From positions 247,109 to 311,108 of the forward strand of contig FN647938.1 in NCBI GenBank assembly GCA_000310025.1: a stretch of 64,000 nucleotides of DNA, given 5' to 3'. The DNA is from Ectocarpus siliculosus. Taxonomy: Eukaryota > Sar > Phaeophyceae > Ectocarpales > Ectocarpaceae. This document shows, piece by piece, positions 4,001-50,700 of this stretch. Below the pieces are notes generated by a model. It worked only from the letters and a program-made list of their open reading frames with translations, was not told the origin of the DNA and did not search any database. The translations under genes were made by a program, and so were the position numbers. Numbering within the stretch: the stretch's first letter is position 1; each line of letters begins with the position of its first letter.

Positions 4001-7000
4001 TTCCGTAGAGAGTACCATGGTAGGATGAATTGTTGGCCTCGTACCCTTTGGATTAATTTTAGTTGGTGTTCCATAGAGTTTTGATGGTTGCCCTCCCATG
4101 GTCAGACTTGCTTGGTGTCCCTGCAAGACGTTTCAGCAGTTGTTTGCTCGGCAGCAGCCACAGCAGTCACACCAGTCACGGTTTGCCTCTCTGTCCTCTG
4201 AAAGGTTTACGTTTTATGGCTGTTGTGCCCCAAGAGGAATTTGCTCTCGGAGCGCGCTTGATGCGACAAAATGTAACTGGAATTCTCTCCTTGCCCCCCC
4301 CACCTCATCACTTCGATTTTTGTCACGCTCGTCTGTGCACACTGCTGGTGTGTCACGTGACATCGATACGCCTATCGCACGCAGGTGGAACTCCCTGACT
4401 ACCTCAAAACTGAAGCCCAGAAGCGGAGAAGGCGCGACACAAAGTGAGCGAAGTTAACCACGCAGTCATGGGCGCTATAGAGATTTGTCGCTGGCCTGCT
4501 GCTGTTTTGGTCGTGCACGATGACATTGCCCCGTTTGACGGGGGGTGAATTTGTTACATTCAAATTTTTGTGAGAGGTTGACGGACACGATGCTGACCGC
4601 TTTGAGGTCGTGGTGCACGGGAACACGTATGTGCGCTTGTGTTCTCATGTTGTCACTACAATTGCACGTGGTTACTGTCGCGTACGGGTTTCGGTCAATA
4701 TTAGTAAGACGCGTAGCCATGATGCCAAGTACGCCGGGAGGGCGGCCTAGGTCATGGGTGGTGTAACGTATCCTCTTTGAGAAGCCGCTGCTGAGCGTGT
4801 GTAGATATGTGGATAGCGGCATCGAAGAAACGCTGTTGTTGCGGTAGTTTGAAGTACTGCAGTGTTGGACGTGTCGTTCCTTGCCCCCGCCTCTCCCAGC
4901 ATGATGTGTACGCCATTGTTGGTTTTCTGGGTGCGATTGCGACCGTGTTGCCGCTGCTTGACCTCCGCTGCTTCTCTTCTCGTTTGGTTTTGGTGCTGTC
5001 TTACTTGGTTTTGGAAGGATTGGCCTAACGGAAGATAACGTGCACAAGAGAGACGCGAAGCTCTTCGAAAAGCTGCAGCTCAAGCTTACCAAGGTATGTG
5101 CAATGTTCCTCCAAGACCTTCGAGCGCTGCCCGTGATGCTGTTTCATATGCCATCTGTGGCAAGCCCCGCCAGTTGAGCCCAAGGTATGTTTAGTTATGT
5201 AGGTGTTGAATCTTGAACACAACTGCGTGTCCCCCTACACCCCAACCATCCGCCCTTCGCTTTCAGCTTTTTGTAGTTCCATCCCATACATCACACACAC
5301 TTTTGTGTTTTCGCCATGCCCGATATGGTTTTAGAGCATTATTCAGGCGGTGATATGGATGTCATTGCTCTCCATGCTAACCCCAGCCGTAAATTGAAAC
5401 CGATGTATTTTTTTCCCCAGAATACTGTCCTTATTCTTGTGCAAAGCGACACATGACCCTATGCGGATTTCGGCGAATGTGAATTTTGTTCGTGCTTGAG
5501 GACAAACATTTTTTTTTAGCAAAACTTACTAGGAATACAGCTCCATGTTTAGCTTGGCGATGTCTCAACCGATGCAGGGCTCATCATCCATCATCTACAT
5601 GAAGTTGTTCCATCATGTTAGGGTGAGGGTTAGACACTCTAGGTACTGAGGACACGGCGCTTGGCGACAGGTGGAACACCTGTTGACCGAAAACGAGCGC
5701 ATCACTGCGAAGGAGGGCGGGCAGGGGGGACTTACGGAAGGCCAGCAGGCGCAGCTTACGAGGAACGACAAGGCCATCACGGCGGTCAGGCTGCAGGCGA
5801 GCGAGATCGACCCGGTTTACCGCATGTATCGGACAGTACATACAACTCTGGAACCGAGTACTTTCGTCGTACGTGTTCCCGCCTGTGACGAGATCTCGAG
5901 ATGGACACAACTTCGCAAGCAGATTCATACTTGGCTACTCTTGTTGTCGGTGGAGATGTTGCTGTCATGGTTCCATGTGTTATCATCGTGGTTGAAGATA
6001 GATTGGTGCGTCATCGCTGTTTTCATTGTTTCGTTTCGCGAGTCATGACACATGTCGGCGGGATGCAAATTCTGACCGGAATCAGCCAAGTCGCCCTATT
6101 TCTCCTCCTGTAGCAACGTTGACGAGATGTTTGCCATCACTCCCTCATGAAACAAAGCGAGAATGACGCGGGTGACTTATTTCGAGTGTCCTAGATTGCG
6201 AAACCGCGGATTCCTCGGGGCTGCGCCGTTCATCAGCGGGCTTATTTGGTTGGGGTTGGGGGATCAAGTTGCCGTCTTGCATGTGCTTGCTTCCCGACAC
6301 CGACCGCATTACTGTGACCCGACAGATTGAAGAGATCGAGGAGACCATCCGTTCCAAGAACAAGGCGCGAGAGCGAGGCAAAGAGGGGGGAGAGGGAGGT
6401 TCCGGGGGTGAAGAGGGCGGGAGGAAAGCGGGGAGAGGCACAGAGGACGGGGAAGAAGACGACGACTACTACGACCGGCAAGACATGGCGGTTGCTGTTG
6501 TTTTGGCATTCCCGTGTGATATTGAAGTTCATTCAGACGCGGCTTGCGACTTCACGGCCATGAAGAGAGGCGTTCTCTGAAGCTGAAGCTGAGGACGGGG
6601 TGGTTGTGAGGCTGCAGTGCTGAAACCATCAGTGGCCGCCGAGCTGACTACACTAGGGTCCGCTCCGATAAGGAGGGGGGGCAGTTCACCCTTTGTTGCT
6701 GATTTCTGAGCCCTGGCTTTCGTACTACAGCAAACCTTGTACTTCTACATCGCCAATAGTTTGTCAGTCAACTTAGCAGCGATCCCGGCACGGTAGAACT
6801 TTTTCGCAGTCTTTCCTGATGTACTCGTAGCCTGGTCAACCCTGTGTGTCTCCGGGAACGAAGCTATGCCCGAGCATGCTGTTGTGGTACATGCGTGCGC
6901 GTAGACAGGGATCTACGGCACAGGCTGACGAGTGGAATCAAATGCCGGCCTTCATTTCTAAAGGGACACTTTCGCCAACCCCGAAGCCAAAGGTTGCACG

Positions 7001-8410
7001 TCATAACAGGCCACCCGCCTCCAACCTGCTAGAAGAACCGTTGTGTCTCGCTAGCTTGACGGACTGATTTCTGTTCACGAATCGTCTTATCCTTTCATCA
7101 CGTCGCGCAGGACTGCTCCCGTAGTGCCCACCTCGTCGGGAACATCAAAATCAGACCTCGCCTCAAAGAAGGCCGAGATCAAAGCTCGCCGTTTCGGCGC
7201 CAGAGACAAAACCAAAAAGTTGTCTGCCGTGACACCACCAGCAGACGACACTGCGGCGGCAGAGCGTAAGCGCGGGGTTGGCCCGGGGCAGAACGAGGCT
7301 GCGGCTCAAAGCTTGGAGGCACTGACGAGGCGCGGCGAAGCGGTCGTGGAGGATTTGGAAAGGACGCAGGCGGGGTTGGCGGAGTTGGAGGCGGAAGAGG
7401 CGGGAGAGGCAGCGTTAGCGGAAGATGGCGGCGTTGCGGCGGACCCGCTAGACATGTTCATGACCGAAAACCGACGGAAGGAGAGACAACAGGCGATAGT
7501 GAGGCTGACGGCCAAGCGCGAAGCGCTCCGCGAAGAGCAGGCGCTCCTCAAGGTAATGGTGGAAGCGGCGCGCCCGTCCATGCCAACCTTGAAGAAAAGT
7601 CCCGCTCCGGCCGCTGCTACTGCTTCTGTCGCAGCCACCAAGGAGGAGACGGTGCCTGTGCCTGAGACGACAACCCGGGGTTCGGGTTCATCGTCGTCGG
7701 ACCAAGCGGCCGAACCCGACGACAGAAAGGACACACGCGCAGCAGCGGTGGACCGAGAGCACATGCCGGGAGGTGGAGGTTATGGGGAAGCTATGCCTGG
7801 CAGCACCGGCAGCGGGAGCCATGAGAAATACGGCGACGAGGTGGAAAAAACGGCCCCGTCTAGAGCAGTTCTGGCACCAGAAGCTGCTAGTACCCTTGGT
7901 TCAATGCCGTCACCAGTGGCGCCACCCTGCCGCTCCAACGCAATCCCAGAAGCCAGAAAATCGCCTGCTGGCACTGTGGCAAGCGCTGGAACGAGAGAAA
8001 GAGGGGTTGAAAAGGGTCAAGCGGAGACGCGACACCCGGGCGTGAAGGAGGGTAAGGAGGCATCGGGCACGAAGAAAAGGGGTACGCCGGTGGGGACATC
8101 GATGCTTCCCCCCCCGCCCTCGAAACGCCAACAACGAAGAGCAGAAAACTCGAAGGCGGGCCTAGCGGGAGAGAACGACGATGATCCCGTCGAACCCAAG
8201 GCAAAGCGAACGGTTAAAGGGCCTGCAATGCCTCCGCCCTTGGGCAAACCTTCGAAAGTTGGTGGAGGCGTTTCCGTGCCGACGGCGGTCGCACGTGTAG
8301 GGGAAAAGGTTGCCGGGAAAGAGGCCTTGGAAGGGGGAGACGTCGATTGGGTGCCACCAAAAGATGCGCTAGAAAAGATGGCGGCACTCAACCGAAAATT
8401 CGGATACTGA
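1029..8410 (+). CDS. SLC4A1AP: Kanadaptin-like FHA-domain protein (SLC4A1AP orthologue), 10 exons
   Basis: Exons: 1029-1401, 2113-2196, 2727-2797, 3173-3286, 3578-3775, 4385-4443, 5018-5093, 5671-5796, 6326-6477, 7111-8410. Together they make 2,553 nt, exactly 851 codons with the TGA stop, and all phases agree. The product is close in length to human kanadaptin (about 800 aa). Exons 1-4 build a complete FHA domain. Visible marks are the PSWGL entry, the LEHPSISRKHA phosphopeptide-binding loop, the DNGSTHGCSVN turn and the LHVGDVIKFGESTRLY strand. Later exons carry the acidic EEDDDYYDRT segment and the family-type C-terminus WVPP...LNRKFGY. FHA domains bind phosphothreonine. The animal protein is nuclear and was named for binding the AE1 anion exchanger, so an equivalent exchanger partner here is not implied. 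Introns 8 and 9 appear to use GC donors (5797 tentative, 6478 strong). The start is the first ATG after the GA tract. Family identity is confident; exact borders of exon 8 are less so. Confidence 0.88.
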
Positions 8411-8677
8411 TTCAACTGTTTGGATTGAAAGGTGCTCATCAAGTGCGCACCCGCAACATCGTGCTTTGCTGTTGATCTCGGTTTTCGTGGTGTGTCTTGG
8501 AGAAGCGCACACAATAAAGTAATAGAGCGTGTTTTCGTATTTTTGCCTGCGTTTCCAGTGTTCTGGATTAATCGTGGTGCAGCCAACGGCTGTGTGAGTG
8601 TCGGTCGAGGTCTATCTACTCCGGCCATAGGCTTTCGCCAATATAGTTTTCGACGCTATGGGCTACATCGGCAGGCT

Positions 8678-8729
8678 GTGTCTGTTCATCGGGAGGCCGT
8701 GTCTGTTCATCGGGAGGCCGCGTCTGTTT
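8678..8729. repeat. 21-bp tandem repeat, about 2.5 copies
   Basis: Two perfect 21-bp units (8678-8698 and 8699-8719; each begins GTGTCTGTTCATC) are followed by a partial third. They lie in the presumed 3' UTR of the kanadaptin-like gene. Confidence 0.85.
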
Positions 8730-9180
8730 CGGCAGAGGTATCAGCGGTCGGTCGTAGTTGGACGAAATCTACTCATGAGAACGGCAAAAAGGAGGAATCA
8801 GTATCGGAGGTAAGGCACGAGAGAGATCCTCGCAACTACTGTAGTTTAGAGGTCGCACAGAGTCACGGTTCACACAAATGATGTTGATTCAACCTTCTTC
8901 CCAACCCCCCCCCCGCCCAAGATTCTTCTCCCACAGGGACTCATCATAATCGTTACATTCAACCGCCGAGAGAACAACTTCATAGTGAAACTCACCCCCC
9001 TACACACCGCAACTAACGCTGCCGAGGATAGTGGTGGCTCAATTTCGTGCCGCTGTGCATTTCCAACACTTGCTTGACGTCTATTGACCTTAGGCGCAAT
9101 TTCTGAAGAAAGCAGACTTGTTCTTCACATTGCGGGTATTGCCTTAGGATCGGACAAATAAGCTACACCCGCGGGTTGTG

Positions 9181-9218
9181 CTCTCTTGACGGTGTGAAGC
9201 TCTCTTGACGGTGTGAAG
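9181..9218. repeat. 19-bp direct tandem duplication
   Basis: The unit CTCTCTTGACGGTGTGAAG occurs twice in a row (9181-9199, 9200-9218). It lies directly downstream of the stop codon of the minus-strand gene ending at 9224, in its presumed 3' UTR. Confidence 0.9.
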
Positions 9219-9223
9219 CTGGT

Positions 9224-12200
9224 TTAGGTCGGCCTCCTAGGGTCCTCGGTGTGGGTAAGATGCCTCCTGCCCAGCTTCAAGAGCTGGTTCTGCGTGATGT
9301 GCTTGCCATCCACCCGTAGAACATCTTCGATCTTATCCTGCAAGAAGACAGGCAGTAAACACACCAGACAAGTGGCACCGATAGCGAGCGTTAAACTGGC
9401 CTGCACAAACGTTCGCTGAGGATGTTCATTTTTGGCCCTCCTTGAAGACATACATGTAGGTACAAATATCATCAGTATCACGGCGGTCGGGGAGGGTAGT
9501 GGGATACCGACAGGCTGAGCAGATATCGGGAGGAACTTCCTATCCCAGGTTAAAGCGGTGAACTAAAAAGCTGGTCAACACGGCGGTTCAGTTCGTAACC
9601 TCGTAAACCTGACCCTCATGTTCGGGGTTCGAATCTCTCCGGCGTGATGAAACTCGCAAATTGACTTGGGAGCGTTTCGTCATGAACATGCACAAACACG
9701 AGTGAATAGACTGCTAAGCACTTTTCGCGTGGGAACTGAAAGCAAGCACCGCAAGAGGGAAGTGGAACAACACAAACCTGAGTCTTACCTTCGTTAACTC
9801 ATTACCGTCGACAAACTCATACCGAATGGTGAAGGCTGACACCCAGAATGAAGAATAAAGGGGACGATAACACATACACAGGGTGTTTCAAGGGGTGCCA
9901 ACCGGCGGCCAGAGAAAGAGAAAGAGAGCGGCTTGTTTCTCACCGTCAAACCAGGCTGGCGTTCGCAGAGAGCCGATGCTAGAACCTCGGCGATGTTGGA
10001 TTTTGCGTTGCCGTGACCGACCTGTGACGTCATGTTTCATATTGTGTGAGAACCAAGTGGACGAACCCCAACGGAACACGTTCAGGTGTTAGCTCGATCT
10101 GTGGTTACACCGACGGTGCAGTCCTCTGTGAAGGTGTAGCAACAACAGGTCCTAGTTTGACAACCAACGGACGGCGGGTAGATGTTCTTGCCGTTGTCGT
10201 CTTCACACCGTAAGCATTCGGCTTCTTCTGCTGTTCAGTGCAAATATCTCTTATGCTGAAACCAAAGTCGCATGTCGTATGCTACCCTCGGTTGTCGCCA
10301 ACATCGAAAACCTAACGTCCTTTCGTGTGTAGTGATACCGAGTAACCTGAAGGTTGGTGTCCTACTCACAACAGCTTCACAACAGCATTGCTCTCACCAG
10401 AAGCACTGAATCGGCCTTCTCGATCACCCCGGACAGCTCCTCCATATAAAACTTGACGAGGTACGCCTCTTCTGCCACCGGGTCCGTCTGATTTCGCCAT
10501 GGAATTAAGGAAAGGCGCGACAACACATGGGTATATGAGGGCATTGCGTGGACAACGAAGTCAGAGAAGGCCGTGAGAGCGTAGGTCGTACATGTGGCCT
10601 GCGTTGTAACACATATACAATATAACATGACAAGTTTTACGGCCGTCAACCCTTGGACAAAAAGTCCGAGACATGACGCCCAAGTTGAGAAGAGCCCTAC
10701 ATTCGCGAGGGGCTGGTAGGGGAAGGGTACACCGTCTGCAAGTAGAGGTTCACGAACGGTTAGCCTTGCTACGTGCATGTCATTGCCAGCAGCGTGGATA
10801 GCACAGTCGTGCAGTTCCTGTGTAGTTTCCCGTGACCGCTGCAGCACCAATGTCGGCATACAGTGACGATAGGAAGGAAAATACGTTTCATAGGTACCGT
10901 GCTTTCAACTTAGCTGCCCGTTCTCATTGGGCCTTGATTGCTGCCATCCAGGAGGAGTATTTTTCGAAGGATTCTGTTGGCTACGCGATCCCGCGAACGG
11001 CACCAACCCGTGGCATTGCAAAACACGAAACCACGTAACCTCGACGGCACGCAGGGTGTTGCCCGCGACACCGTCCACGTCTTGGCAACTCAACGACCCG
11101 GCCGGCCTCCCCCCTTCTCTCTTGCCTTTTCTGCGTGGTGCTTGCCCTGCCCCTGGCTCCTCTTCTCCCTATTGCTTGTCTCATGTACCCTCCATTCGTC
11201 AATCGGCTCCACAACTTCAGGCACGCTATTTCACAAACAACAACAGCAGTATATAATGGAGACGGTAGGAGGGTCGAGGGCGGGTAGCGGGCATTCAAAA
11301 GCGAAATCAAGGAGACAAGGGTGGTGGGGGGAGACATGCATCAGCACGAGAAAGCTAAGCGCGACACATGCCACATCACATGTCAGCACGAACAGGAACT
11401 TCAAACACACCCCATGCGCGGAATTGACTGCGGCATGGTCTGGTGATCGATAGCACAGTGGGGCAAGTTTTTTTTATGCCCCTTCGGCATGTTTACCACC
11501 GGCGCTGGCTTTGCTACCTCAGCAAAGTTTCCCGAAACACCGCAAAAAGAAGGTCATCGCACATCTAAGGGACCGGCTTTGAACACTCGATTGCTCCACA
11601 ACCAAGCAGTGGGAACCGATCGATACGTCTAAAGAGAGCTCTCAACGTCATCCACGAAACAATCCGTTGAAATATCACTACTTCCATTGCTCAGGGAGCA
11701 TCGAGCTTGATTATTAGTCTTGGGAGGGTCGTTCCATAAAACTAGCAGCGTTATGGTTGTCGGAAGCAGAGCATAAGATTGCACGTGGTGACGATCTTTC
11801 TGGAATTCACCTGCCCTTGGCGACTGATTTGAAGACCTTGGCGTGCTTCTTCGTCACCTCGATCAATACCAGGGATCCCTCTGGCGCCTGCACCACACCA
11901 TAAAAAGACGGCGGGGGGGGGGGGGCAAAAAAAAAGGACAAAGACACCCCGGGTTGCCGCCCTACAAATTGAAACATTCAATTCCCATATGTTCAAACTG
12001 GATGGGGGACCCCTGATGGAAACGGCTTCAGGTCCACACGTGACCCCCTTGACTCCCGAGGGCTGGCAACCTGCAACGCTTGTTCAAACAACAAGCGAGT
12101 CCGGCAGCCAAAGGGGCTGGCCCCTGTTCCCCTTGTCGAGCTAGCCGTACGTCACAGACGATCTAGGCCACCCCACCAACTCTGCAGCTTTCAGTCCGTT

Positions 12201-19700: not shown

Positions 19701-22700
19701 CGTACTACATCAACCAAGACTATATTGTCTCAGGCTTTCTCATCGTGCGATAGATCTCATGAACGGGGAAAACAGTAAACAACCGCAGTTGGAGGGTAGC
19801 CAATCCCAGTTTCCACCAAGGATTGCCGATTCCTATTGGGAGAGAACAACAACAAATTGCGTGAGCAAAGAACGTGGTAACTCGTTGAAGCATCTTGAAC
19901 AGTTTCGCAAGGTAGGGGATAGGAGCAGATTTTCGCGCGACCACGACCTAGATAACGTTTCAGAAACCCAGCCCCCTTTTGAATCACGGTGGTTGGCTGG
20001 GCTATCTAGCCACACCACGCTACATCATGCAATCATGTTTCCTACGGCCATCCCCAATGTTTCTGTATCACTCTCAGGTACAAGCAATGCCTGCATGCAT
20101 GAACCGCCTTGGAGACATGACAAGGCTGGTCAGTCTCAAACTCAGCCAGAACAAGCTCCGGTCTCTGCCAAGCAGGTGTGTAACCGTCCTCAAGATGCCT
20201 TGAAGCAGATATCTCAAGGATGTCCACGTCTAGTCAACCTCCCAAAGCTGAGATAATTTTCCTGAGGGCAAGGTGACGCACGCTTGTTCATTGGTGGTCA
20301 TGATCAGGTATAGCTGGTGTTCGAAGTTGGCCACCTAGTTTACCCATCGCCTGCCAAGGCCGCCAAGCCCCATCCCTCCTTCCCTCATGCATGCGTGGTG
20401 CTTCCTTAATTTCGGCGTATCCACCGAACAAATCAGTTTTCTTTTCCCCGCCGTTTGCAATAGCATTTGCTGGTGTCACAACCTTGAGGTGCTGGAAGCA
20501 AACGACAACTACTTGGAGAAACTCCCGGCGAGGCTGGGGGAAATGAAGCAACTCAGGCACTTGAGGCAAGACTAATAGGAAAAATTCATGGTCTCGCACG
20601 TCTGAATTGTTGCAGGATCGAATGCATGCTTTGGTTCTTTCCGAACCATCAGAACATTACGTATGACGTACACCGCAACTGAACAATACCCAGATGCGTT
20701 AGGAAGGGTTTGGAGACCTTATTCTGATGAGTATACAGGAAGCGCCCGTGTAAGAACTGCTCTTTGGACTGGGTGCCAGTACTGAAGCGTTTCGCAGGCT
20801 ACCCTATTTCACAAGTCAATTAGTGTCCCTTCTTCACACCTAATTCACCGTGCGTGGTCGTTCCGTTTACAACCAGAACGATGCGACACACAGCATTGTC
20901 TGCGGGCTGAGCCACGAAAGTGACTGATGAAGATACATTACGGCCAGTCCCTTCCCATAGACACACGTTAAGGGCGGATGCATATGAATCAAGGTTTTGA
21001 AAATGCGACCACCCATCGCATTCCCGCCTGTTTGGCAACAAAGTAAAGGGTCTGGCACCTAGACCCCTTGCCAAGGGCATCCCCATCCCCCCCCCCCGCC
21101 CCCCTGGTGTTTGCCATCGGGATTGGGTTTTCGTCGCTTGGCAAAGACGTTGTAAAACAAGCCAATTCACCTCGCGAACTCGGCAACCAGGTTACCGTTT
21201 TTTTTTTACCTTCGGTTTTTTTTGGCGGCAACCATAATGGTGGTCGAGTAGATCATGTTGTGCGGGGTCGAGAACCCTCACTCCGCGCAAGGGGGATGAT
21301 CGCACCACGTTGTGTTAATTTGGTCAAGCGTCCTCGAGGCAGTTACACAGTGCTTACAACTGTCTCTGGAAGTGAAAGCACCAGAAAATAAATTAAGTCA
21401 TACGCAGCTGTCATCCGTACGCAAGGAAGTAAGCACAAGATGCCGAACACCCTTAGCAGGATGCAGCTCACCCTTCATGCGACTCGCCGAATACCTCACG
21501 GCGCTTCGCGCTTGGTGATGTGAGAGCCTGGTCCGGTGAGAACCCGGCGTGCTCCGTCCCGGCTTTGTAGGGATGCAAGGTCAATGGTCTAACGACTACG
21601 GCATGCACGACTATGAGTACACCCCCACCCCCCCCCCCATGGTGCTTCGAGTTAGTACAGGCCATGCCAGATGCTGTCCGTGGCGGCGTTTCATTGAGGG
21701 ATATGCATACGACACTCTTCAATTGCGTCAGTCTCACCCCTTTAGCCTTTCTGCAGATGTTTGTTTCTCAACGCCGGAGTACAATGGACTTGAAATGCTG
21801 TCCAAAACCACAGTAGATGTTTTTATATCCCTTGCCCAATGAGCTCCCCACCCCGTCCGTCTCTGAACAAACATCTGCCCCTTTCGTCCCTTTCGTCCTC
21901 TGATGCAAAAACGTAAAACACCGCCATTCTGCTTCAGGTTGGACGTTAACTGCTTAACTGAGCTTCCTAGCTCGATGGTGCAGTTGGACCGGTTGGAAGA
22001 GCTGTGCCTCACCAGCAACTTCTTCGCTACCTTCCCAGACTTCGCCATGAAAATGGCGGGCTTGAAGAAGGTACTCTCAAGGTCATGTCATACAACAGAG
22101 CAAACGTTTCCTCACTTGCAACCGTCAATACAGAACACGAACGAAGAATTCGATACCCTCCTGCCTGTGTATGGTTACGCCCTCGACCTACCCATGATTG
22201 AATGCCAACACTTGGCCGCAGCTTCTTCTCGGCAACAACCAGCTCAAGAAGCTGCCCTACAGCGTTGGGTTTCTGACCAGTCTCAAGACACTGCAGGTGA
22301 ACAATAACAAATATTCTAATGTTCCAATCTTAAAACATTTTTTCGGCATAACTTATTTGTGAAAGCCGAGTTTTCGTTTCTACTACGACCTGAACACTTT
22401 GTCACATTGGCCGCGTCACTTTCCCGATGCTCGTATCCGCTTATCCTCGCCAACAGTCGTTTCCCACGGCGAACCTTAGCCATTGAGTGCCGTCACCCGG
22501 TCCCTAATGTGCGTTCTATCCGAAGCATAGGCAGAAGCTCGACATTGTTCCGTGCCGAGAGCGAGAATTTCTTCACCCCTCCTCCGGCCCGTCTTTCAAA
22601 CTAACCTAACCTACACATCAACATCCAACCCGGCCCTCACCCTTAACCCTTGCCCAACCGGTCTGCGCCGCGGCTCAAACGGGAATTGTAGCTGTACAAC

Positions 22701-25700
22701 AACCCTTTGGCCGACCCTCCGGCGGAGCTACTGCTGTTGGGCATGGGGGCTATGCTGTGGGAATGCCGGAAAAGACATTGGATGCAAGTTCGAGGGCCTC
22801 CGCCTGTCGTCCGGGTGCACGGTTTCGGGATAGAGGCAAGTGGAGGGAATATATGATGGGGTTCTTCGTGCGCGTTTCAACCCAGTACCGTTTCATGTTT
22901 TGGGTTGAGGGTCGTAACGACCAAGAGGTGTGCTTGGTTTGAGATAGAGGACGGTACCAGACCGTGGATGTTACAGCTTCATCGCCGATGCGGTCTAGAC
23001 AAGTCCTGTGTGTCATCAGGGTGTATAGACTGCGGATAGAAGGAAATAACGTTCGAGTCTTTGAAAAATTTGCCCTGGATGACAGCAGTATTTGCCCCGA
23101 GATTTCGGTTTATTTTTCTGTTGATTTACGAAGTACCTTATTTCGAAAACATAGAGCATTTTAGTAGAGCGTTTGAGTCCATAACTTGAACCATCCTCAA
23201 CTCGACAGCCCATCAGTGTGGATGGGAATGCCTTTCTCACCATTCTCACTAACGTATGATACCTCTTTGGAATCGGATGAAAGTCCTCATAGAAGGAGAG
23301 AAAAACGTAGCCAACGAAAAATAAACACGCACACGTGTTATTGAGCATGGAAACAATACGAGTGGTAAACAATCGGATAGTCACATGAACCTTTGTACAG
23401 CTGGTGCTAACCCGTTCCAACCAACTGGGCATTCTAGGAGGAGAAGCTGGAGCTCCAGCCGGAGTTTGACCGCAAGCTTGCGAAACGCATTAAAATGGCC
23501 GGACGTAGCGGGGAGCTGAACTTTATGATGGAGGGGCTCACGTACTTTCCGATGGGGGTATTCCAAGAAGAGGCAAGGCAATCGGATGGGTCATGTGTGT
23601 TGATACGAGACCCAGACATTGTTAACAGAGAGCATGATACAAGTTATCGAATGGATGAGATCTACGGCGCATGATGGTGTATGATCGCGATCCGTGGCTT
23701 CTTTGTCTTGGGGCCTTGAGTGTTGGCTTGGGATTGTGACGGAAAACGCAGAGTTGACCACGGCTTCTGCATATCAACACTGGCCACAACACGACAGCAC
23801 TACCAACACCAATACCAGAGCAGCAGCAGCAACAACAACGACAGCAATAGCAAGAGGACATTGTTGGACTCGTTCATCCTCAGATTGGGAGAAAGCTCAA
23901 GAGCCTACGGCTAGACAGCAACGACTTCAGCAAGGCAACAATAGTGTTTCGCCACACTTGGCAAGACTTGGACCAGGTCACGCATTCGGTGAGCGTAGGG
24001 TACTCTTGATCCCAAGAATGAAGAGGGGCCAGGCGGAGGAGAAAAATATCACAGGAACGCTCTGCCAAGATCCTCAAAGAATGACATGTGAAAAAAACTA
24101 CCTGGTTCGATCATGTACGTCGCTGCCACATTGTGTTGGTGGTAATATTGCATAAGGTAGGGGAGGATGCAATGGGTGTGAAATGTCGTGCGTGCCTGAT
24201 ACGGCGTTTCTCCTGGTAGGAATCCAACCACCTCTGATTGGTTGCTCTTTTGGGTGGTTTAGGAACGTTTCTCGAATTGATTCTGCTTGATTCACCGTTA
24301 CATTTGTTATTGGAACCCAATCCCTGTTACGTGTGTTCCTGAATCGAAACCCAGCGCTTGCTGGCCCATTTTCGTGTTGTCAGAGTATGTTGCAACAACA
24401 CTCCGGCAAACGGACGGTATTAGAAGAGCAGGAGGCGTATCGTGTGTTGTAGATTCCATTGTACGTTGCCCTCCGAATCAATCGCGCACCCCAACCCCTT
24501 GCCGACCAACCTGACACCCCCCGCCAGGTTTCTCTTTGTAACCTGACTGTTCTGTCTCTGAAAAGCTGCAAGCTGCGCCGGTTGGACGATGATGTTGCGG
24601 AGCTGAGGTGCCTGAAGGAGCTGTATCTCGAGACCAACCTCATCTTGAATCTTCCCGAAACTTTCACCAGACTCCGAATGCTAGAGGTGGGTACAACGGC
24701 AGGCGTTTCAAGTCAACCTTCGCTTCTCTGGTTTCGTCATTTGCCTTCTGGCCATTTCTGTTTTCCTTCGTGCCAGTGCAGACATTTCGTGGGGCCATGA
24801 ATCGAAAACACCATACAGAATTCCGAAGCAATGTGCAATGCCACAAGATGACACTCTTGTATCGGTAGGGTCAACTCAGCGACAATTTGATTCATGTCTC
24901 CGCCATGCACAAATCGGGCCAGATCTTGGACGCAAAGAAGAACCGCTTGCAGGACTGCCCCGAGGCGATAGGCAGCCTCTCCCTCTTGAAGCGATTGGAG
25001 CTAGACGGTGAGCTCGGGACCTCTAGTACAGTCGAGAAAAATCGCTGCAAGAATATCGAGGCAGTTGCTAACTGAAGATGCCGTGGGAGAGAGTTCGAGA
25101 AATTTCGAGAATTATGACATCTGTTGCGAAAACGTTGATCAAACCGAGAACAACACGAAATCATGCGCAAACCTCGCAGCAACGAAGAATGAAAAGGAAA
25201 TTTTGCTCTGCGCAACTTACGTTGCCTGATTTTTGCTGCCGCCTTATGGTTCTCAGGCAATAGGGTTGGGTTAGCATCTGAGGTCTATTTGGAACAGATT
25301 CAAGCCATACACTGACACCATTGTTTTGGGCTGCTTGTTCCGTCTTTTTCAGGCAACCGTCTGGAAGTCCTCCCACCATCGCTGTCTCAGCTCACCCAGC
25401 TGGAGGTGCTCACCCTGTCGTCCAACCACGTCTATCAACTACCTGACGAAATTGTGGGGCTTGCCAAGCTCAAGGTGGGAGTGAATAAATTTAATGGTTT
25501 CATTTCGACCAGAATATTATTGTAGGTATGATATTCACACTGACCATTGGCAAAAATTTGGCCCAAACCGAAACATTTGGGACAACTTTGAGCGTGAATA
25601 TGGCCACCAAATCTGCACGGGTGAAGCGCCGAGTCCCTCTTTACAATCGCCCACCTACCCAATCCCGGAGCGTCCGTCGATGGTGGTGCTGTTGTTGGTT

Positions 25701-34708: not shown

Positions 34709-36960
34709 AGCTGTTAGACTATGGCACTGTTGCTCAAGGGCGCGGCAGTTTACCGTTAACAGCTGGATGTATGGGGTGAGGTCTTGTGCGTCGGTCTGTG
34801 GTCCCGCCCGCACTGTCGTGCCTATTGCCTATTGCGGATCGTATGGACCACCTCGTCCTTGGGAAGCAGAACATCATGTCACTTTCATCACGTTCATGTA
34901 CCATGTTCGCGCATAAGCGGGAAATCGACGCAATGACGTCCATGGTGAACGGGCCTACAGCACAAGCCGAAACAAGCCAAAACGCTTCGGCCTTAAGCCG
35001 AAGTCGCTCGAAGGCCTCGAGAAGGCGACGAAAACAGAACCTCGTATTCCACGTGCAGCTCGTTTGTCTTGGCGTCGCGCGTACGTCCCCGGTTGAACGA
35101 CCGAAACAGTGCCGTTTTGTCTGAGTAACCCCTGGAAATCGGCGGACTCAAGAGCAGCAACACGTGGCACAAACGCGAGCAATTCTTTTTTCAAACTGAT
35201 CGCCTATGCAGCCAATCATCAGGGAACATTCCGCCTGCCCGGAGCGACGAACACATGACGGCCGTGATACCTCTCGCCCACCAAGGGTAGACTCATCATC
35301 CGTGGACCCACCCAGCTCGACAAGGTGACAACTGTAACCCTCATGCGAAAAAGCCATTAGGGAAAGCCTCCTGTTAGCACTTCCGTTGCCCGACTGCCGC
35401 CGAGGGCGGGGCCGCAGTCGTAGGTCCGGATCGTCGTGTACCCGTAGCGTCATTAACATCTTATCAGAGGGGCAAACGCCTCGCTTGGTGTTCGCTCCGA
35501 AACCGAACCCCGTTTCTCTGTCGAGATTTCATGTAGGGCACACTGTCCATCGCAAGTACACCAACCCGCTTCACTTCAATCCAACCAAACGACTTTGAAA
35601 ACGAAACAAAAATCTTCGGCGTCACAGCAAAAAACGGGAAAAGCCATGTTACGCAAAAAAAAACTGAAAAAAATTCAACTTTAAAAGTCGGGTGCGATTC
35701 GTCCGTCAGAACGTAAAGCGACAAAACCGTTGTGGTATCCCACACGAGTAGAGCAAAAGCCACGGACTTTTTTCAAATGCGCTCTCTCGACAATTCCAGA
35801 GCCCCTACAGTATGATTTAAGACAACTGTTGACCCCGCCCGAGATCATTCAGAAAGCACAAGATGCACACAAACAGTGACATAGTACCTCATCAAGCGTG
35901 TGAGTCAGTAACTGCTGGGGCCTATTTCATGCAGAGAACAGATACTACACTAACCCGTAATCGAAAAACACACAACTGGAGTCTGACATAGAGGCGAGAG
36001 GTCTATAGCAGAACATGCTCCAGCCGTTGCTTGTAACAATGCATCAACACCAACACACACGCACACTTGTTTGTCTTCGAGGCATGAGTGCTCAACATCT
36101 GTCCCCGTCTGTCGGTGCAGTGTGCACTGGCACACAAACGCGACATCATCTACTGGGAAGTACTCCCAAGGCATGCCTTACAGCGGACCATCCTGGTGTC
36201 GTAAGAGCCACACCCGGAGTCGAACTACAGTACACACACACCGATTCCGGTTCCGCACTAGCCAGGATACGAGGAGGGTATTGACGTGGAGAAATCGCTA
36301 AACAAAAAAGCTACCGCGTAACCGCTCGTTGCAACATAGGACATGATTTCCACGAAAGTCATCCCCAATACAACCTGTCGCTCCTGCTCAGCGGCAAAGG
36401 CTCTGTAGCTTGCTAGATTCTAGAGACGGCGCACAATATCCCCGCGTCGTTGGAAACAAAACGCTTCGCAAAACCTTTAATAATAATGCCGAAGCTGAGC
36501 ATAGACGCGATGCAAATATGCATAAGAGAGGCACAAAGACCTTTCATATAAATACCAACCGCCACAACACGGCCGGCCGGCTGCTAGAGACAACCGTTTT
36601 CCGACCCATTCATAAAGTGGCACCTTTGCTGCTCTCCTCTTTCAGCTGCAGCTGTGCTCTCAAGAAATGTTACACCAGGACACGGATGGATGTATCACAC
36701 GTTTACTTACACCGAAGAACCCCACGACAACAGAACAACGAAACACGGTGTGTCTACAATACCGAGGGACAATGTAGCAGAGTACAAGGCCGTCCTACGC
36801 CAAGCCTGCAGTTGTGACGCCTCCGTCCTCCGAGCAACAGGTTTACTCCCTGTGCTACATTCCGGCGCGGATGACTGATCCCGCTTGATTCGCCTTGACA
36901 TGCATCCGGGACGCGTTGCCGCGAACAAGCACCAAAATGGCTGATAATCCTCATTCAAGT
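34709..36960. other. Convergent intergenic region, no gene seen
   Basis: 2.25 kb lie between the TAG of the large LRR gene (+) and the TGA of the next minus-strand gene (36961). Long 3' UTRs probably account for part of it. No exon with coding character or flanking splice sites was found on either strand. Confidence 0.5.
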
Positions 36961-39900
36961 CAAGCGAAGTAATCGTTGCCGGTGGACTTCCCCGCGTCCC
37001 CGAATACGATGTTGTCGTCCTTCAGATTCACCTGCATATTGTATTCACAAGAAGCAAGTGGGTAGTTCTTTGCTCGCCGAACGTAGCCATTGAAAGCATC
37101 GACTACGCGCCCATTCTTAAGCCAAACCACCTGTCAAAGAAGGCGTTTCTAGCATGGGGAGGGCAAAACACGCCATCGAATGGTTTTCACCTGAAGATGC
37201 ACCATTTTGGAAGTGGGCGGAGTACACCGACACAACCGACAGCAGCTTCAACAAGACCGCTAAGCGTCGGTGGTTTCGTCTGTAACAGTCCAAGTTTCCC
37301 TTTCTCATCTCATCTACTGCGGACGTACGGGTCTACACCTACACCTCTCTCGGCACACTTTTGGGCGTACCAACGGCACCCACACAGACAGGGATTCCTA
37401 CCGCCATGAATGCCTTCAATTAGCTTTGCGAGCAAGCTTCAGCAATCTCTTCGCTTGTCGCCGTGCGTGCTCGCGAACTAGCATTTTCTAGATCCAAAGC
37501 TTGAGTTGTTTTCGAAGCGGTATTCGTGTATGGTCTTCACGGGTTCGTGTAGACCCGCCGCCTGGACTACAGTCCTTCTCGGTAAAGCGCCGCGAGATGT
37601 TCACTGGTCGCAGGCGTGTTTCAATGAAAGAGGAGCAATAGCATGACCACAACCAAAAACTGGCCAAAATGAAACGTTGTCAGAAAAACAAAATCAGAAA
37701 CGCAGACCGCACCTTCCAATAGTTGTACAGGAGCAACAGGGACTCCAAGATCTGAAATTTTGCAGGAATTGCAGGCCAAGCAGGCGAAGCACGAGCAGGA
37801 GAAAGTCGCCATCTTGCTTGTTGCTTCCCATTATGATTTCGTCGTTGACCACGAATTCCTTTCAAGACAAGGCACCGCTCTCTCTTCCAAAGACACCACC
37901 AGCATGTGGGTACTTCACGTTCTGCCATTTGGTTCGCGAAACGTCAACATTCATACCCCTCTTCGTAATATATTACGCGATCGAGCGGGGGATACTAGAG
38001 GAGAAAAATAACGGCTGGCACTGTCTCAAAACAGTTACAATGTAATGGTCGACAAGGTTTTCGAGAAAAAGTATTGTCTGATTTCGCGTGCTTCCCTCCC
38101 TATGAACCCATGCGGTTCATTGTGGGGTTCATTGGTCCAGCAAATGGTCCCCATCGTCACCTGGAGACGCCACCATCAATACTCTCGTACTAGTCAACAT
38201 TGTCGACGTGAGGATGGCTTTCCGACTACAGGATTCCCTCACCTGCTCCCAACTCCGTCCCATTTGCAAGTAGGCGTTCGCCTCCTGCGGGGGCGGATAG
38301 GGATCCAACAAGACGAATGCGACCGTAAGGGCAGAGAAGCAGATACAACACGTCACTTGTCGCTTGTTCCAGCCATAACTATCTCAACCTTGCGTATCAC
38401 GCTATCTGGATCTAATTAAAAGACAACATCGGAAGCGAGTTTCAACAACAACGTGCCGCGGTATGCCTAAATCCGTGAGAAACTTTTCGGTGAACACGAG
38501 TCAACTTTGTCTTTAACTTGTCTAGTCATCTGTTCGTCAAGTCTCTCGGTAACTCCCCTCCGCAGCTCTCCCGACTTCCCATCTCTTGCGATTGTTTTCG
38601 ACGCGTCGCTGACATGCGTCGGCGAAATACAATACGACGCCATACAACGCACACCATACCTGCGACGTAAGCAAGTCGTGGTGAGCCTTTTCCCACGCTT
38701 CTAGGTTGCCCCCGTCCACCTCCTGCACGGCATGGAACAAAAGAAACAACGGACAGAAAGACGAGGGCACAAGAACCTCAATACATTACTGTATCTCAAC
38801 ACAAAGCGCAACAACAGCATCTGCGGCGACAAAACGGAGGGCAGCACAGTCGCAAGCACCAACAGCCGGGATCGACACCGGCACAGCCAAAGGCTGGAGA
38901 GAGAGACAATGCCGCCAAAGCAGCGCATGGGAAAATTACAGCGGGTGTTATGTTGAGACCCGGAACACTCGCGCTACATACCCATTCTAGTCTGGGACTG
39001 CCTCAGCCACGTTTCAACGTCTTCAAGCTATTGCAAATTCGGATGATGACAACTTTGGCGGCTGATGCGTGGAAAAGACGCATAACTCGCATAGCTGTAG
39101 GGATGTACGCTTCTACGGAATGAGGGCGAAATTATCGCTTGATCGTCACAAGCGGTTTCAAACGGTAGAGAAATTGAGGCACGCTTCGCCAGTAGGTAGT
39201 GAGCAGTGAGGCAAGTGGTGACCTGTTCGTTGGTCCTCCTTCCTCCCCGTACACGAGAGACGGCATACCGCCATGACTACTCCACTACATAGTTATGTGC
39301 CAACCGCCCAGCCGTCCTGCTACAGGCTACAATCCTTTTCACAAGATACGCAGCTGGCGCTCTCTTTAGGATCCAAAGTCAGCTGGTCGAAAAATCCAGT
39401 CCAACCGTGTACGACGCGCGCGCCCATTTATGGCACGATAAAAGACTCCAAGGTTCTGCGAAATTTCACGGCCGGGGAAACTATGCCATAACGATAGGCG
39501 ATCGTGTNNNNNNNNNNNNNNNNNNNNNNNNNNNNNNNNNNNNNNNNNNNNNNNNNNNNNNNNNNNNNNNNNNNNNNNNNNNNNNNNNNNNNNNNNNNNN
39601 NNNNNNNGGAATTGACCTTTCAAGCAAACAATGCGCAAACCAAAGAGAAAAAAGTTAGGGAAGGGGCAGCAGGGGCGGGGGAGCGACAACAACGTCACGA
39701 GACCGAACACAATTTGTCGGGCACCAGTTGCTTTACACCATGCAGCATTGGACCGCTCCAATCTCTTGTGTCCCGTTCTTACCGTTCGCAGCACATCAGA
39801 GCGAGCGATGCATCTGCAAATGGTCAATGCCATGCCCCTGACTTGACCCTAAATAACTTTTCGTACTCCTTTGATCCTAGCCCATATCCCAACTCTACAC

Positions 39901-42900
39901 CGGACACGAGAACGAGCTGGCTCTGTCGACCCCCATGCCTACTCCTCCTCCTAGCCCACGCCTGGCATGATCCTTGTCCTCATCCAGACCCAACACAGCT
40001 CCGCATAGCGGTTTCGCCTCTGCACCCCAAATAGCGGTTTCGCCTCTGCACAAGTACGTACCTGAGAGCGAGCGCTGTTCGATCGCTTCATCTCTTGGAC
40101 GATCTGGACCTGAAACTTCTGAATCTTCTGGCGGTGCGACTCCGCAAACGCCTGATCGTTCCCCGGCAAACACAAATCACACCACGAGAACAGCCGATCC
40201 AGCAACTCCCGAAACTCTGTTTATAGGAAGAATCAATCAAGGGGAATAACCGATCATTTAATCGTTGTCGTCGAGCCATGTGATGAAGAAGCAAGCAAGG
40301 CAGAAAACAGAGAGTCAGCCCGTAGCCACTGGGCGGGTAAGGGGGGAGAGAGGGAGGGAGCATTGGACTTCGGAAATGCCATGGGGTGAACGATTGGAAA
40401 ATGTGCATAAGCGTCCTGAACGGAGCAGGCACACCACGACAGTCACACCCTAAGGCAAAGAGCACAGAGAGTCATAGCACAAGTATGCCAGACAAGAGCA
40501 TGAACGGCCTACGCAAGGACCAGCAACAATGCCGTTCTTAGGTTTTGGCAATATCATTCAAATTTGTGCAAACGTGTAAAGCGGCGCTCATCTCGGAAAC
40601 TTTTCGGACCCTCTTTCCCCCCGCTCTGCCATTTCGTTGCACCTACTGGCAAAACCTCACCGTCTACTAGCATCAGCAGCTCTCGGGAGACCTCGTAGAT
40701 TTCTCCCGTCTGGAAGCTGCCACCACGGAGAGAAGGGGCAACGGATGGACCAACTCATGGATTAATTCAAGTTACCGTGGGACAAGAAGAGGCTTAGGAT
40801 TCTTATTGGTCATGTAGCACAAGGGTTCCACCATGTATACAAAATGCAACAAGGAAGACGCACGAAGCAAAAACAGGGCAGGGTCGGGTAGCTTGCTGCG
40901 GTAGCACAACAAGAAGCAAAAAAACAACTAGCGGAACAAGGAAGAATGCCAGCTCGTCGAACATTGAATGACAGCAGATAAGTTTCGTCCACTGAAGAAC
41001 TCATGAATGTCGATTGGTTCAAAAGCAACGTCTCCACGTCAAATATTTCAAGGACACATCTACGTTGCGCTCTACTGTTGTGGTACTGCCCATTTCTCCT
41101 CGTTGTGCCCGGCGAAGTGCAAAAACTATAAAACACTTATCATACCAAACCTTTGCTCACGAAATTAGCTCGACTTTGATTGCTCTCGTCTCACTTGTTT
41201 TGTCTGGAAATAGCGCCGTTGAAATACTCGAAAACCTTCCTGCGGCGCTCCCTAGCGTTGTCCTTCTCGTCCATGAGCTTGAATACCCTGCTCCAGCGTA
41301 ACAACAAACGCGGAACAGAATCGCAACCAGAGACAGTCAAAACAAAACAAACTTCAGGAACTCCGGGTGCCCTGCCACAGTCGTGGAAGCATGCACGAAT
41401 CACTGCTGAAAACGATCACGAGCTCGAAGCTCCTTTTGAGCAGGGGCGATCATGTGCACATCGACAACAAAACTAAAGGATTTTGCAGGACACCCTGAGC
41501 ACCATCAATGATACAAGAAAAACACTTGTACAAGTATTGGTTTGTCAACCTAACACAGTCGCTTCAGAAAGCACTGGTCTTGGTTATACCCTCGGCGAGA
41601 GGCGAGCTGAAAAAACGAAAGCCACGCGCGAGAAAGTACTTTTTAACAAGAGTGAAATGCATGGAAAGAGAGGTCACACGAAAGGGTTTGGTACTTTATA
41701 GGTTGTCATCGCCTCCAGCGGAAGTAGAAAACAATACCGCAGACAAGACTGCGAGCACCAACAGCTGGTGCTACAAGTGTCCCTGCAACTCTTCGTGCCG
41801 GCCTTTGGACGACACACAAACACACGAATAGCTGCCGCTCAGGCTCAAGGGAAAAATCAAGACAGGCTCAGACAGCCAACACACGGACGCCACTTCGTTC
41901 AAGCGGGTTGGCAGTCGCACCCGACCAAAGTCGTGCACATGTGTACATAGTCTACACGCGGTGTGTCGCTCCGATCGCTCCGACATTGACACAGGCGTGT
42001 AAGGAGTGTCAGTGTTGCAAATACTGCTGCTAGGAGGTGGCTCCCCCGACTCGCCGATAGTAATCGATCTTGCGCTGCTTCCTAAGCTCGGGGAACTCTG
42101 CCATGGTGTCGTGGAGGTTCTTCTCATAAACCTATCGGAAAGGGCGAGGGGGGTAGAGAAGACGAAAGGCAGATTAATCACTCCGACAAAGCAAGAACGA
42201 TAGTATCTACGTCAAAACGACCAAGTCGCGAACCCATCACAGCATATCACGTTGGGTGGACACAGGGCCATCCCCAAGTGAGACTAGATCTCACGAGACA
42301 AAATGGTGGACACTCCACGTAGTGGAAACTTTCACGCGGCATACTGCATGCTTATTAGGATGCTTTGTTCTCTGCTCCGACACCCGTCGCTTATCGAGAC
42401 CATTATAGCTGAATCATCTATGCACTTGACCGCTTTACCCATGATGAAAGCTATGCACATGCATCAACACATTGATGCCGCAGACGTTCGAGATCCTCAA
42501 TGTTGTGCGGGCCTTCACATTTTGGGCTCCGAATGCAACAATATGCTGCAGTCTTAGACAAGGGAGAGAACGCGCAGAGGTAAAAATAGACGTATGTACT
42601 TTCGGGCCTCACTCGCGATTTCTGGAGCTTTCTCCGGATTTGTGCAACTGGACAGGCAAAGCGGTGAAGGTAAACAAACCGGTCACGCACCACGTGCCAC
42701 GTATGGAACAGGGAGGCACAGATGGACCTACTAGTAATAACTTACCTTCGAATCGGTCTCGGCACCAAGCGACCGTTGAAGCATCCTGTGATTTCATGGT
42801 TTGCGTTATCCGCACACAGGGCAACGGGAGAGAGGCACTTTAGGGTACGTCTTCTTCACCTGGTGCTTCTCGACATCAGCACGCCCCTCTCACACTATCA

Positions 42901-44369: not shown

Positions 44370-44766
44370 CTCTCCCGCCGTTAGCAAACGCTGAGCAACC
44401 GCGTGTTTTCCCTCTTGTCTCCCCCTCTCTTGGTGGTTGTGGTGCGTGCAAAGCAATAAAAATAGTGAAAAATGCATCACGCCTCACAGCACAGCTCGTG
44501 GCGCCGGGGCGCCGTGAACTGCTTGGAAGTCGAAACGGAGAACACACCCCTGCTTTTTCTCACAAGAAACGACGGGACACCCCATCCGGCAGATCTCCGA
44601 TCTTGCTTGCCTTCTGCTTTGGTCATGTGGGATCTTCGTTGGTCGTCTCTGTCTTGGATACCGTGATACCGACCTAGTGCTCTCGAGGCCGAGCGAGCTG
44701 CAGAGTGGGTTAGCCATAAGCTAGACACAACTCGATGAACAGGAAGAAGGACGCCTCTTATTGTCG
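44370..44766. promoter_or_regulatory. Candidate bidirectional promoter between divergent genes
   Basis: 397 bp separate the ATG of the minus-strand charged protein (44369) from the ATG of the plus-strand IQ-WW-LRR gene (44767). Both 5' ends must be driven from here unless there are distant non-coding exons. No core element is obvious. Inferred from layout. Confidence 0.45.
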
Positions 44767-47700: not shown

Positions 47701-50700
47701 GACAACGACACCAAGTCGAGATCTCGCCTCCCGACGATTTTTCTATCGTCATTCTTGCGGGTTGACAAACTAGGGGTGGGTAGGACAAGAAGCTTGGACC
47801 AAAGAGCAACAGGAGCAGGAACAGCAACATAATCAACAACACGCGGGCGGTAGCAACGGTGATACCAACACCGCCGAAGAGGCAGGCTACGAGGGGTGGG
47901 TATGGGACGACACCTCCGGCTGGTACTACGACGAAGACCTGGCCACACAACTCCTCACCGGTGGCGTAGACGTCGTTTCCAAGAAAGGGTCAGATGGCGG
48001 CAACGTTTCCGCTTCAGTGGAAGCCGAAAGCGAAAGCGAAAGCGAAAGCGACACTGACAGCGACAGTGAGGAGGATGGTATCGACGAGCAAGCTGGTGAG
48101 AGAAAGAAACAAAGGCGAAAACGGAGGCGTCGAAGCTTAGCCCCCAGAAACTTCCCCAGGTCGAAGGCCCAACGCTTGGTCGACGAAGCGGAGGATAGCA
48201 TAGACGGAGCGCGGCCCGAAATCTTGGACCTAAGCAAGTTGGACATGGATAGAGTTACCTCGAGGGTCTACAGGCTGGACTGGTTGCAAAGGTTGGATCT
48301 GTCGAACAACCGACTCTACAGGATTTCTCCCGATCTAGCTGGCATGGAGAGCCTTGTCGACGTTAACTTTCGGCATAACAGGTGGGTGAGAGGTGTTTCG
48401 CAGGCCAGGTATATTTTCGAAGAGGCCTTCAAACAAACGACGGTGGGACCAGCAGATACGGGCACGGGTGTTTGGTACCTAGTAATGGCCACACATTCCG
48501 AGGGTTGTCGGTAGCAAGGCGGTGGAGATGTTGCCTTGCGGGTTTCAACCTCTTGTGAAACAGACATTAGCTTGCTTGTTCGTGATCGGGAAGTATTTCG
48601 TGAGCGATTTGGAACATACACATTGTTTCTCGCCAAATCATCAACTGCAATCTATGTATATGGTTCGGTACTGAAAAATGAGCTCGTGAACACTTTCCTT
48701 CGTCTTCCTGTACCTGCGAACAAACAATGTCCTCTCTTGCTCGGAGCGACTGATAGTGATAATTCGAAAAAATTGAAATGTGAATAATTTCCTTGTTCTG
48801 TTGTTTGGGGGCGGTTTAGAATCCAGGCCATTCCAGACGAATTGGAAGCGCTGACGAAGCTCAAGCACCTGCAACTGGGGCACAACCTAATTTCCGGCTT
48901 CAGAGGCAATATCTACCTCATCAGCTCGCTAGAGACCCTCGATCTGGGGCACAACAGGTAATCATGTACCAGTACCGGGCCGCGTGTGGTAGCTGTTTCT
49001 CTTGCACGGGCACATGAGCCATATGCTTCACATGAAGACGCCGTAGCAGATTTCGCGAAGTGTATGCTTTGATCAATCAGGTAACCTGGAAGAGGGACCC
49101 ATTACGGTCAAACCCACCGTTGCCGCCTCAACATCGTTACAGGTACATTGCAGTGTCTTACAGCCGGTTACACCATTGTCTTGTGGGATGGCATAAACGT
49201 TGTATGGCTCACTCCAACTATTCTACTTTCATGTCGTCTCTGCAGGCTGAAGGAGGTACCGCTCCAAGTAGGAGACTTGCAGCTGCTCAAGAGGACGCGC
49301 GAGTGGGAGGTAGGACGACAAAGTCCATCATGATCCTTTTGTGGGGAGGATGCGGTTAAACATGGCCTGTAGTAGACGAAAACGAAAAATCTGGCAGTTG
49401 TTGTGTATCTATCATACAGGTAGATGACTGGCCGTACAACCCAAACGTACGATATTCCAGTCGCAAGGGAATCGTTCGTTTTCAGCACAAGCGTATCTGT
49501 CACGGGATGGTTTTTCTGCTCCGTTTGTACATCGCCCTACACGGTGCAACTTCTATCTTGCAAGATCGGCCTCCGTCTCCTCCGGGAACTGGTGACTCTC
49601 GACGTGAGCTACAACCGCCTCAAGACGTGGCCGCCGCAAGTGGAAGAGTGCAGGAACTTGCGGGACTTGCGTCTAGACCACAACAAGCTTCAAGAGGCGA
49701 GTAAGGGCTGTACTTGGAGCGATTCATGGTAGCGTGACCTAGAAGGGAAGATGTATGATTGAGGTGATCATATTCGTTCCGTGTGGTCGAGAAAAAGACC
49801 TACAGTTGTGTATTGGACCGGAAGGTACTACAAGCTCGGGCCCAAAGGGCTCGCGTACGTGAGCGTACCAATGGAACATCCGGGCCCAAGAGGAAAAGTG
49901 CATTGGGCGCTGTTTTACCAATCGAAACCCAGCCAGGTCTGCGCCATCTCAACTATCCAATACCCCGCTCTGCCTAGCTCGACAAAACCACTGTACTACC
50001 ACCGCTCACGACAATGCTGATTTGACAGGTACCCGCCATCGTTGGGGACAACACAGCACTCACGAACCTCAACCTTAGCGGCAACAGCCTCAAAGGCCTT
50101 CCACACACCATCAATTCCCTCTCGGCTTTGGCCCGCCTCGACCTCTCCGACAACAAGCTCAAAACCCACTCCATCCTTCCCGTGGGAAGGAAACAAAAGG
50201 GGCCGCGCCTAGTATCCCTGGAGGTGTTGCGATTGGACGGTAACCGTCTCACGGAGAGACCGGACATGGTGGAAACATTCAAGACGCTCACAGAACTAGA
50301 GTAAGTGCTACCTGGTCTGCCTATACGAACAACAATCTCCCGGTTCGTTTGGAGAGATTACTGCTTTGTCGCTATTTGCTCTTGGTACGTTGGGGGTTTC
50401 CGCGGCGAGCACCGAAAAAATTTAAGGCTTTCTTGGATCTGGTGTTGTCCTTTTCGTGACACCTTAACCTCCTCCCCTCCACGAGCAACTCTAAGCACAT
50501 GCGGTTGTTTCCACTCTTTCAGGTTCTGCGTTTGTGCTGGAGTCGAAAGCGGATTGACAGGGGTCAATCGAGGACGGAAATGAAACTAAGGGGCTTCATT
50601 TTTTGATTAACAGTTTTCTGTGGATATGGGTCCTTAAACCACACCGAGAGAGCCACTGTTGGCTTCGACAAAACGAACGTCTTTGTCGTACTTGTTTCAT

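Follow-up and report, generated by a model that had tools for sequence, protein, structure and literature searches.

Introns that begin with GC and end with AG appear, with high probability, to make up about 5–6% of all introns in the genome of the brown alga Ectocarpus siliculosus, several times the usual share, and the excess would thus be genome-wide rather than local to the region in which it was first noticed. That region, hereafter the window, is a 64,000-nucleotide stretch of contig FN647938.1 of assembly GCA_000310025.1 (positions 247,109 to 311,108 of the forward strand; G000:C456:247109-311108; the assembly comprises 189.5 Mb and 492 contigs), for which an earlier annotation made from the letters alone (the sequence-only reading) had described repeated GC donors in four neighbouring genes. 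The explanation that we regard as very probable is that the window samples a genome rich in U2-type GC-AG introns, which would be handled by the usual major spliceosome and a canonical U1 small nuclear RNA (snRNA), with the C at intron position +2 compensated by the core of the donor and spread by near-neutral drift.

The rate was estimated from conserved genes found by Pfam searches, all located on contigs other than that of the window. A total of 31 stretches were fetched, and 27 loci (29 stretches, 26 genes) were aligned to reference proteins, which were PDB chains or Escherichia coli K-12 proteins; the letter at +2 was kept neutral throughout, and the aligner admitted only introns ending in AG. 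Two CCT genes with long runs of N (L010 and L011) entered an ab initio run only and were excluded from the referenced counts, and PF07724, which gave few matches, and a ValRS chain were left unused. The raw alignment comprised 293 introns, with 261 GT, 18 GC, 8 GG and 6 GA donors. A flank filter blind to the donor letters, which required that both flanks be aligned, that the junction be without gap or unknown residue and that the length be at least 60, retained 173 GT, 8 GC, 3 GG and 1 GA. When this filter was combined with a loss of 10 half-bits or more, the loss being the drop in alignment score once the donor is forbidden, 161 GT and 8 GC donors remained and all GA and GG calls disappeared, giving 4.7% GC (95% interval 2.1–9.1%; 8/169 against an expected 1%, p = 3.4e-4). 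The loss and length criteria without the flank filter retained 220 GT and 15 GC donors and no others, or 6.4% GC (3.6–10.3%; 15/235 against 1%, p = 2.3e-8). These counts agree with the proposal of the sequence-only reading that the share of GC-AG introns lies several-fold above 1%, and, with such introns in 11 of the 27 loci, its description of them as a feature of four neighbouring genes does not hold.

The rate varies among gene sets, because the first six CCT genes contained 8 GC donors among 62 introns (the other 54 being GT), against 2 among the 87 introns of the second referenced set (81 GT, 2 GC, 2 GA and 2 GG). Two GC calls, at 1487 of the eta gene (with a 3-base exon and out of the tally) and at 4395 of the delta gene, were gone in a later rerun. 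A strong codon bias was also noted in the six CCT training genes (L007-L009 and L012-L014), in which codons such as AAA, ACA, AGT, CAA, CAT, TAT, TCA, TGT and TTA are nearly avoided.

The 15 sampled GC donors share one context. All 15 carry the core AG/GNRAG (A-2, G-1, R+3, A+4, G+5; the slash marks the splice junction), against 27 of the 220 GT donors (Fisher test, 5.5e-13), and the share of GC is therefore 15/42 within this core class and 0/193 outside it. Their common form, AG/GCRAG, matches the known consensus of GC donors, as the sequence-only reading had noted for the sites of the window. Phase 0 was found for 14 of the 15 GC introns, in comparison with 149 of the 220 GT introns (p = 0.04) and with 21 of the 27 core-matched GT introns (p = 0.39). 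An apparently special A at position +6 (p = 0.001 against all GT donors) was rejected, since core-matched GT donors are alike in this respect and the letter at +6 shows no difference from them (T, p = 0.69; A, p = 0.34). Introns with GC and GT donors have median lengths of 466 and 485.5, respectively. Donors of U12-type introns follow the consensus RTATCCTT; an origin from this class was also rejected, as none of the 15 GC donors has that form and all are GCRAG.

This uniform context, together with canonical U1 and U6 genes and with the scarcity of decent GT donors nearby (both described below), suggests that these are ordinary, compensated U2-type GC-AG introns, which would be spliced constitutively. 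C at +2 would be tolerated exclusively, or nearly so, where the core A-2 G-1/G+1, R+3 A+4 G+5 is intact, the pairing of this core with U1 offsetting the mismatch at +2; in donors with such a strong core, T and C at +2 would be nearly interchangeable, and GC donors would have accumulated in these sites, probably by near-neutral drift. A stronger version, which we offer tentatively and hold to be somewhat less probable than its opposite, is that, given an intact AG/GNRAG core, the spliceosome of this lineage hardly distinguishes T from C at +2, at ordinary base composition. If this were true, +2 would be switchable under the control of the donor core rather than of genomic GC pressure or a U1 variant.

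The splicing machinery was examined for a component that might favour GC donors. Six U1 genes scored above the Rfam cut-off, and all six have the canonical 5′ end AUACUUACCUG; a divergent copy could be missed, because 41 of 2618 candidates were scored. Four of the six lie on one contig (G000:C479:122328-455542), where about 1.4 kb separates two of the four. The sole U6 gene found has an intact ACAGAGA box, and a search for U4atac gave no match, as did the control searches. For the U1-C protein, a single exon encoding the zinc finger was found (L047); it keeps the residues that we take to contact the duplex of U1 and donor and differs elsewhere, with a G after CDYC and APG in place of what is presumably the usual PSV. 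A changed component that actively accepts GC donors, be it a U1 snRNA of variant sequence, a U1 base that carries a modification or a changed U1 protein (U1-C, for example), would account for a high rate at a GC content of 51–53% in the sequence read and would fit the few departures in the U1-C exon. We nevertheless regard it as unlikely, given the six canonical U1 genes and the retained duplex-contacting residues, and the permissive U1 that the sequence-only reading had put forward finds no support in them. Canonical U1 5′ ends are likewise given for Aureococcus and Micromonas (PMC3033335).

Base composition, by which a GC-rich genome would mutate GT to GC, has been proposed for Aureococcus (69.5% GC, with 39.6% GC-AG introns), Micromonas pusilla and Emiliania huxleyi (PMC3033335, PMC4028052). 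It is rather improbable here, since the window has a GC content of 51.5% and 17 loci average 53.1%, below the 65–70% of the composition-driven algal genomes rich in GC-AG introns, and since introns with GC and with GT donors both have a GC content of 51%.

The sequence-only reading had also raised regulated weak splicing. GC donors are associated with alternative splicing in animals (PMC7242645, PMC2490688), and those of the alga could be weak sites kept for such a purpose, as in nematode let-2. The sampled introns point the other way: apart from +2 each donor is at full strength, a GT donor with a score above 3 occurs within 40 bases of only one of the 15, retention would keep the reading frame in none of them, and they lie in housekeeping genes at varied positions along the gene. 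Regulation of this kind is therefore judged very improbable.

That the GC calls are alignment artefacts, with true GT donors a few bases off, is the least probable alternative, since GA or GG calls reach about the frequency of GC when references are lacking or introns are cheap, but are removed by filtering when references and a proper intron cost are used, which leaves GC in place, and since the filtered GC calls are all AG/GCRAG even where the aligner was given no donor context. When the donor matrix was trained on GT introns alone, all 15 GC sites were recovered. In a context-free control, in which G at +1 was the sole demand on the donor, the filtered and unambiguous introns at a cost of -20 comprised 145 GT, 8 GC and no GA or GG, the 8 GC calls being those of AG/GCRAG form; at the slightly cheaper cost of -16, all filters left 137 GT and 4 GC. 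Before the ambiguity filter, the run at -20 gave 165 GT, 11 GC, 7 GA and 3 GG. This control found 13 of the 15 GC sites again at -16 and 12 at -20.

Several observations weigh against our interpretation. The costs of the aligner were set by ourselves. Before the ambiguity filter, the context-free control at -16 called 169 GT, 14 GC, 10 GA and 10 GG, and at a much cheaper cost it called GT 254, GA 80, GC 69 and GG 68 (168, 39, 40 and 44 after filtering); with all 16 dinucleotides free at cheap cost, GT was the only signal. The cheap-cost control was set aside for calling far too many introns. An ab initio run on ten loci without references gave GT 88, GC 13, GA 11 and GG 4, in which GA comes near the frequency of GC, and references are therefore required. 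The flank filter removes 7 of the 15 GC introns, including delta 4050 and eta 1990, which lie in stretches without reference residues and for one of which the acceptor differed between runs. The rate is drawn mainly from conserved housekeeping genes. The predicted energy of the duplex with U1 is -6.3 kcal/mol for GC donors against -8.1 kcal/mol for the median GT donor, which suggests that the compensation would be partial. Two of the sites in the window, 6478 and 42054, read CG/GC and break the AG/GCRAG rule, so that they are either exceptions or wrong.

All five GC dinucleotides named for the window (6478, 20566, 22836, 49697 and, on the minus strand, 42054) are present at these bases, and most of the sites named are probably real donors. 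Unguided scanning of the window with +2 neutral showed no clear excess of GC: the posterior sums were GT 26.2, GC 11.7, GA 9.4 and GG 9.1 on the plus strand and GT 9.9, GA 5.6, GC 5.6 and GG 4.5 on the minus strand. Ab initio gene finding on the window under this neutral setting was discarded as too noisy, and the case therefore rests on guided alignment and the genome-wide sample. With a prior of 7% GC, the sums became GT 40.3 and GC 5.2 (plus) and GT 11.7 and GC 2.1 (minus), and GC donors were additionally proposed at 53143 and at 11125 (minus). The candidate introns are listed in the table; posteriors below are from unguided scans and, where two are given, refer to GC priors of 7% and 0.9%.

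Table. Candidate GC-AG introns of the window (LRR, leucine-rich repeat; the caret marks the joined residues).
Intron	Gene	Coordinates	Strand	Donor	Phase	Junction and basis
GC-AG	long LRR gene	20566..21937	+	tgag/GCAAGA	2	MKQLRHL^RLDVNCLTELP; guided aligner, +2 neutral
GC-AG	second LRR gene	49697..50028	+	agag/GCGAGT	0	LRLDHNKLQE^VPAIVGDNTA; guided aligner
probable GC-AG	LRR gene	23573..24527	+	agag/GCAAGG		guided aligner, loss 10.4
plausible GC-AG	LRR gene	22836..23437	+	agag/GCAAGT	0	3′ end assigned by eye
GC-AG, on frame and motif	kanadaptin-like gene (FHA protein)	6478..7110	+	accg/GCAAGA	2	joins DYYD-R-T; acceptor assigned by motif, by hand
probable GC-AG	kanadaptin-like gene	5797..6325	+	gcag/GCGAGC	0	frame open
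GC-AG, on frame and motif	minus-strand gene without Pfam match	41288..42054	-	atcg/GCGAGT	2	RKIDYY^RVFKLMDEKD

The two LRR genes were aligned with our own spliced aligner, guided by a generic LRR consensus and with zero weight on the intron letter at +2. Among the 17 distinct window introns with a loss of at least 10, the donor was GT at 14 and GC at 20566, 23573 and 49697, a share (3/17) that does not differ significantly from the 15/235 of the genome sample (p = 0.11). Forbidding donor 20566 costs 18.2 half-bits and forbidding 49697 costs 15.4, and both junctions restore the phase of the repeats. The sequence-only reading had stated that the five named introns can be placed in frame only with a GC donor. 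This is upheld for 20566, where no GT occurs from 20490 up to the in-frame stops beyond the donor, and is too strong for 22836, where weak GT sites precede the stop. GC at 22836 is thus plausible but not forced; its donor score is 14.6 against -0.5 for the best GT of the same exon, and a run of the aligner with a prior paired it with an acceptor at 22885. Donor 49697 has posteriors of 0.89 and 0.52. Of the further candidates that had been proposed, 23573 is probable, although its intron may be split by an extra exon at 23884-23934, the form obtained under neutral scoring, and 23935 (caag/GCAACA) is weak. Unfavourable to these assignments are the posteriors of 20566 (0.02), 23573 (0.11) and 22836 (0.015 and 0.002) and the switch of the guided aligner from GC 23573 to GT 23558 under a GT-favouring prior. 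Below the loss threshold, the same aligner also placed a GG donor at 18198 (loss 4.9) and a GA donor at 22761 (loss 1.5).

The gene at the left of the window has a match to the FHA domain (E 1.3e-12) and is presumably a kanadaptin, with the motif DYYDRT. Joining 6478 to 7110 (...DDDYYD-CG/G-ACT) restores this motif and yields a single open frame that passes through the GC donors 5797 and 6478 to a stop at 8410. The posteriors are 0.57 and 0.31 for 6478 and 0.64 and 0.27 for 5797, another of the further candidates, for which GC is plausible but not forced. In the gene on the minus strand, donor 42054 with acceptor 41288 keeps the frame and the nearby GT at 42049 leads to a stop; its posteriors are 0.62 and 0.28 and its loss is 4.4. 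The donors 6478 and 42054 would therefore stand on frame and motif. Against them and 5797 stand the choice of acceptor 7110 by no program, a loss of just 1.1 for 6478 within a path on another frame, the use in one run of GT 5826 in place of 5797, and the preference of the programs, with +2 neutral, for GG at 42045 over GC at 42054. The minus-strand gene itself (36960-42784) has several exons, its coding signal is coherent, and it matched no Pfam family at E 0.01; one of its predicted introns contains 100 consecutive N (39508-39607).

Aureococcus is an ochrophyte alga. A survey of 61 species and about 2.46 million introns gave a GC-AG share of 1.3%, with far higher values in Aureococcus anophagefferens (39.6%), Micromonas pusilla (22.2%) and Chlorella (7.7%), linked to high genomic GC content (PMC3033335). 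Aureococcus and M. pusilla resemble the present genome in combining raised GC-AG usage with the canonical U1 5′ end AUACUUACCUG, but their genomic GC contents are 69.5% and 65.9%, and that of Chlorella is also very high, unlike the 51–53% of the sequence read here with about 5–6% GC-AG introns (PMC3033335). Emiliania huxleyi is likewise an alga with GC donors and ordinary AG acceptors, which standard gene finders predict poorly; it differs in that GC-AG accounts for 56% of 241 curated junctions, in its GC content of about 65% and in its frequent intron retention (PMC4028052). In mammals, GC donors adhere more closely to the consensus in the rest of the donor, as here, and neutral fixation in strong contexts has been proposed; they make up less than 1%, in contrast to the several per cent in Ectocarpus, where 15 of 15 have the AG/GCRAG core (PMC2490688). 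Eurytemora affinis and Oikopleura dioica also show a genome-wide excess of one non-GT donor, but this donor is GA and a variant U1 isoform is suspected, whereas no GA remained after the filters and no U1 variant was found in the present sample (PMC7072748). Among the titles and abstracts found, none dealt with GC-AG introns in a brown alga, and the text seen of a paper on Diplonema names a brown alga only in a reference (PMC10161547).

The phenomenon is thus of a known kind, and this genome is a moderate member of the GC-AG-rich set that is unusual for the 51–53% GC of the sequence read. Because the excess occurs at about 52% GC with a canonical U1, the case helps to separate high GC content from splicing tolerance, which are coupled in the known algal examples. 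Gene finders restricted to GT-AG introns would break about 1 intron in 20 here, and many multi-exon genes would contain at least one error.

Elsewhere in the genome, G000:C11:2317911-2323269 holds a pair of GTP_EFTU genes whose match scores are identical; the two are oppositely oriented, stand at a distance of about 4 kb and have open frames of 428 and 423 residues.

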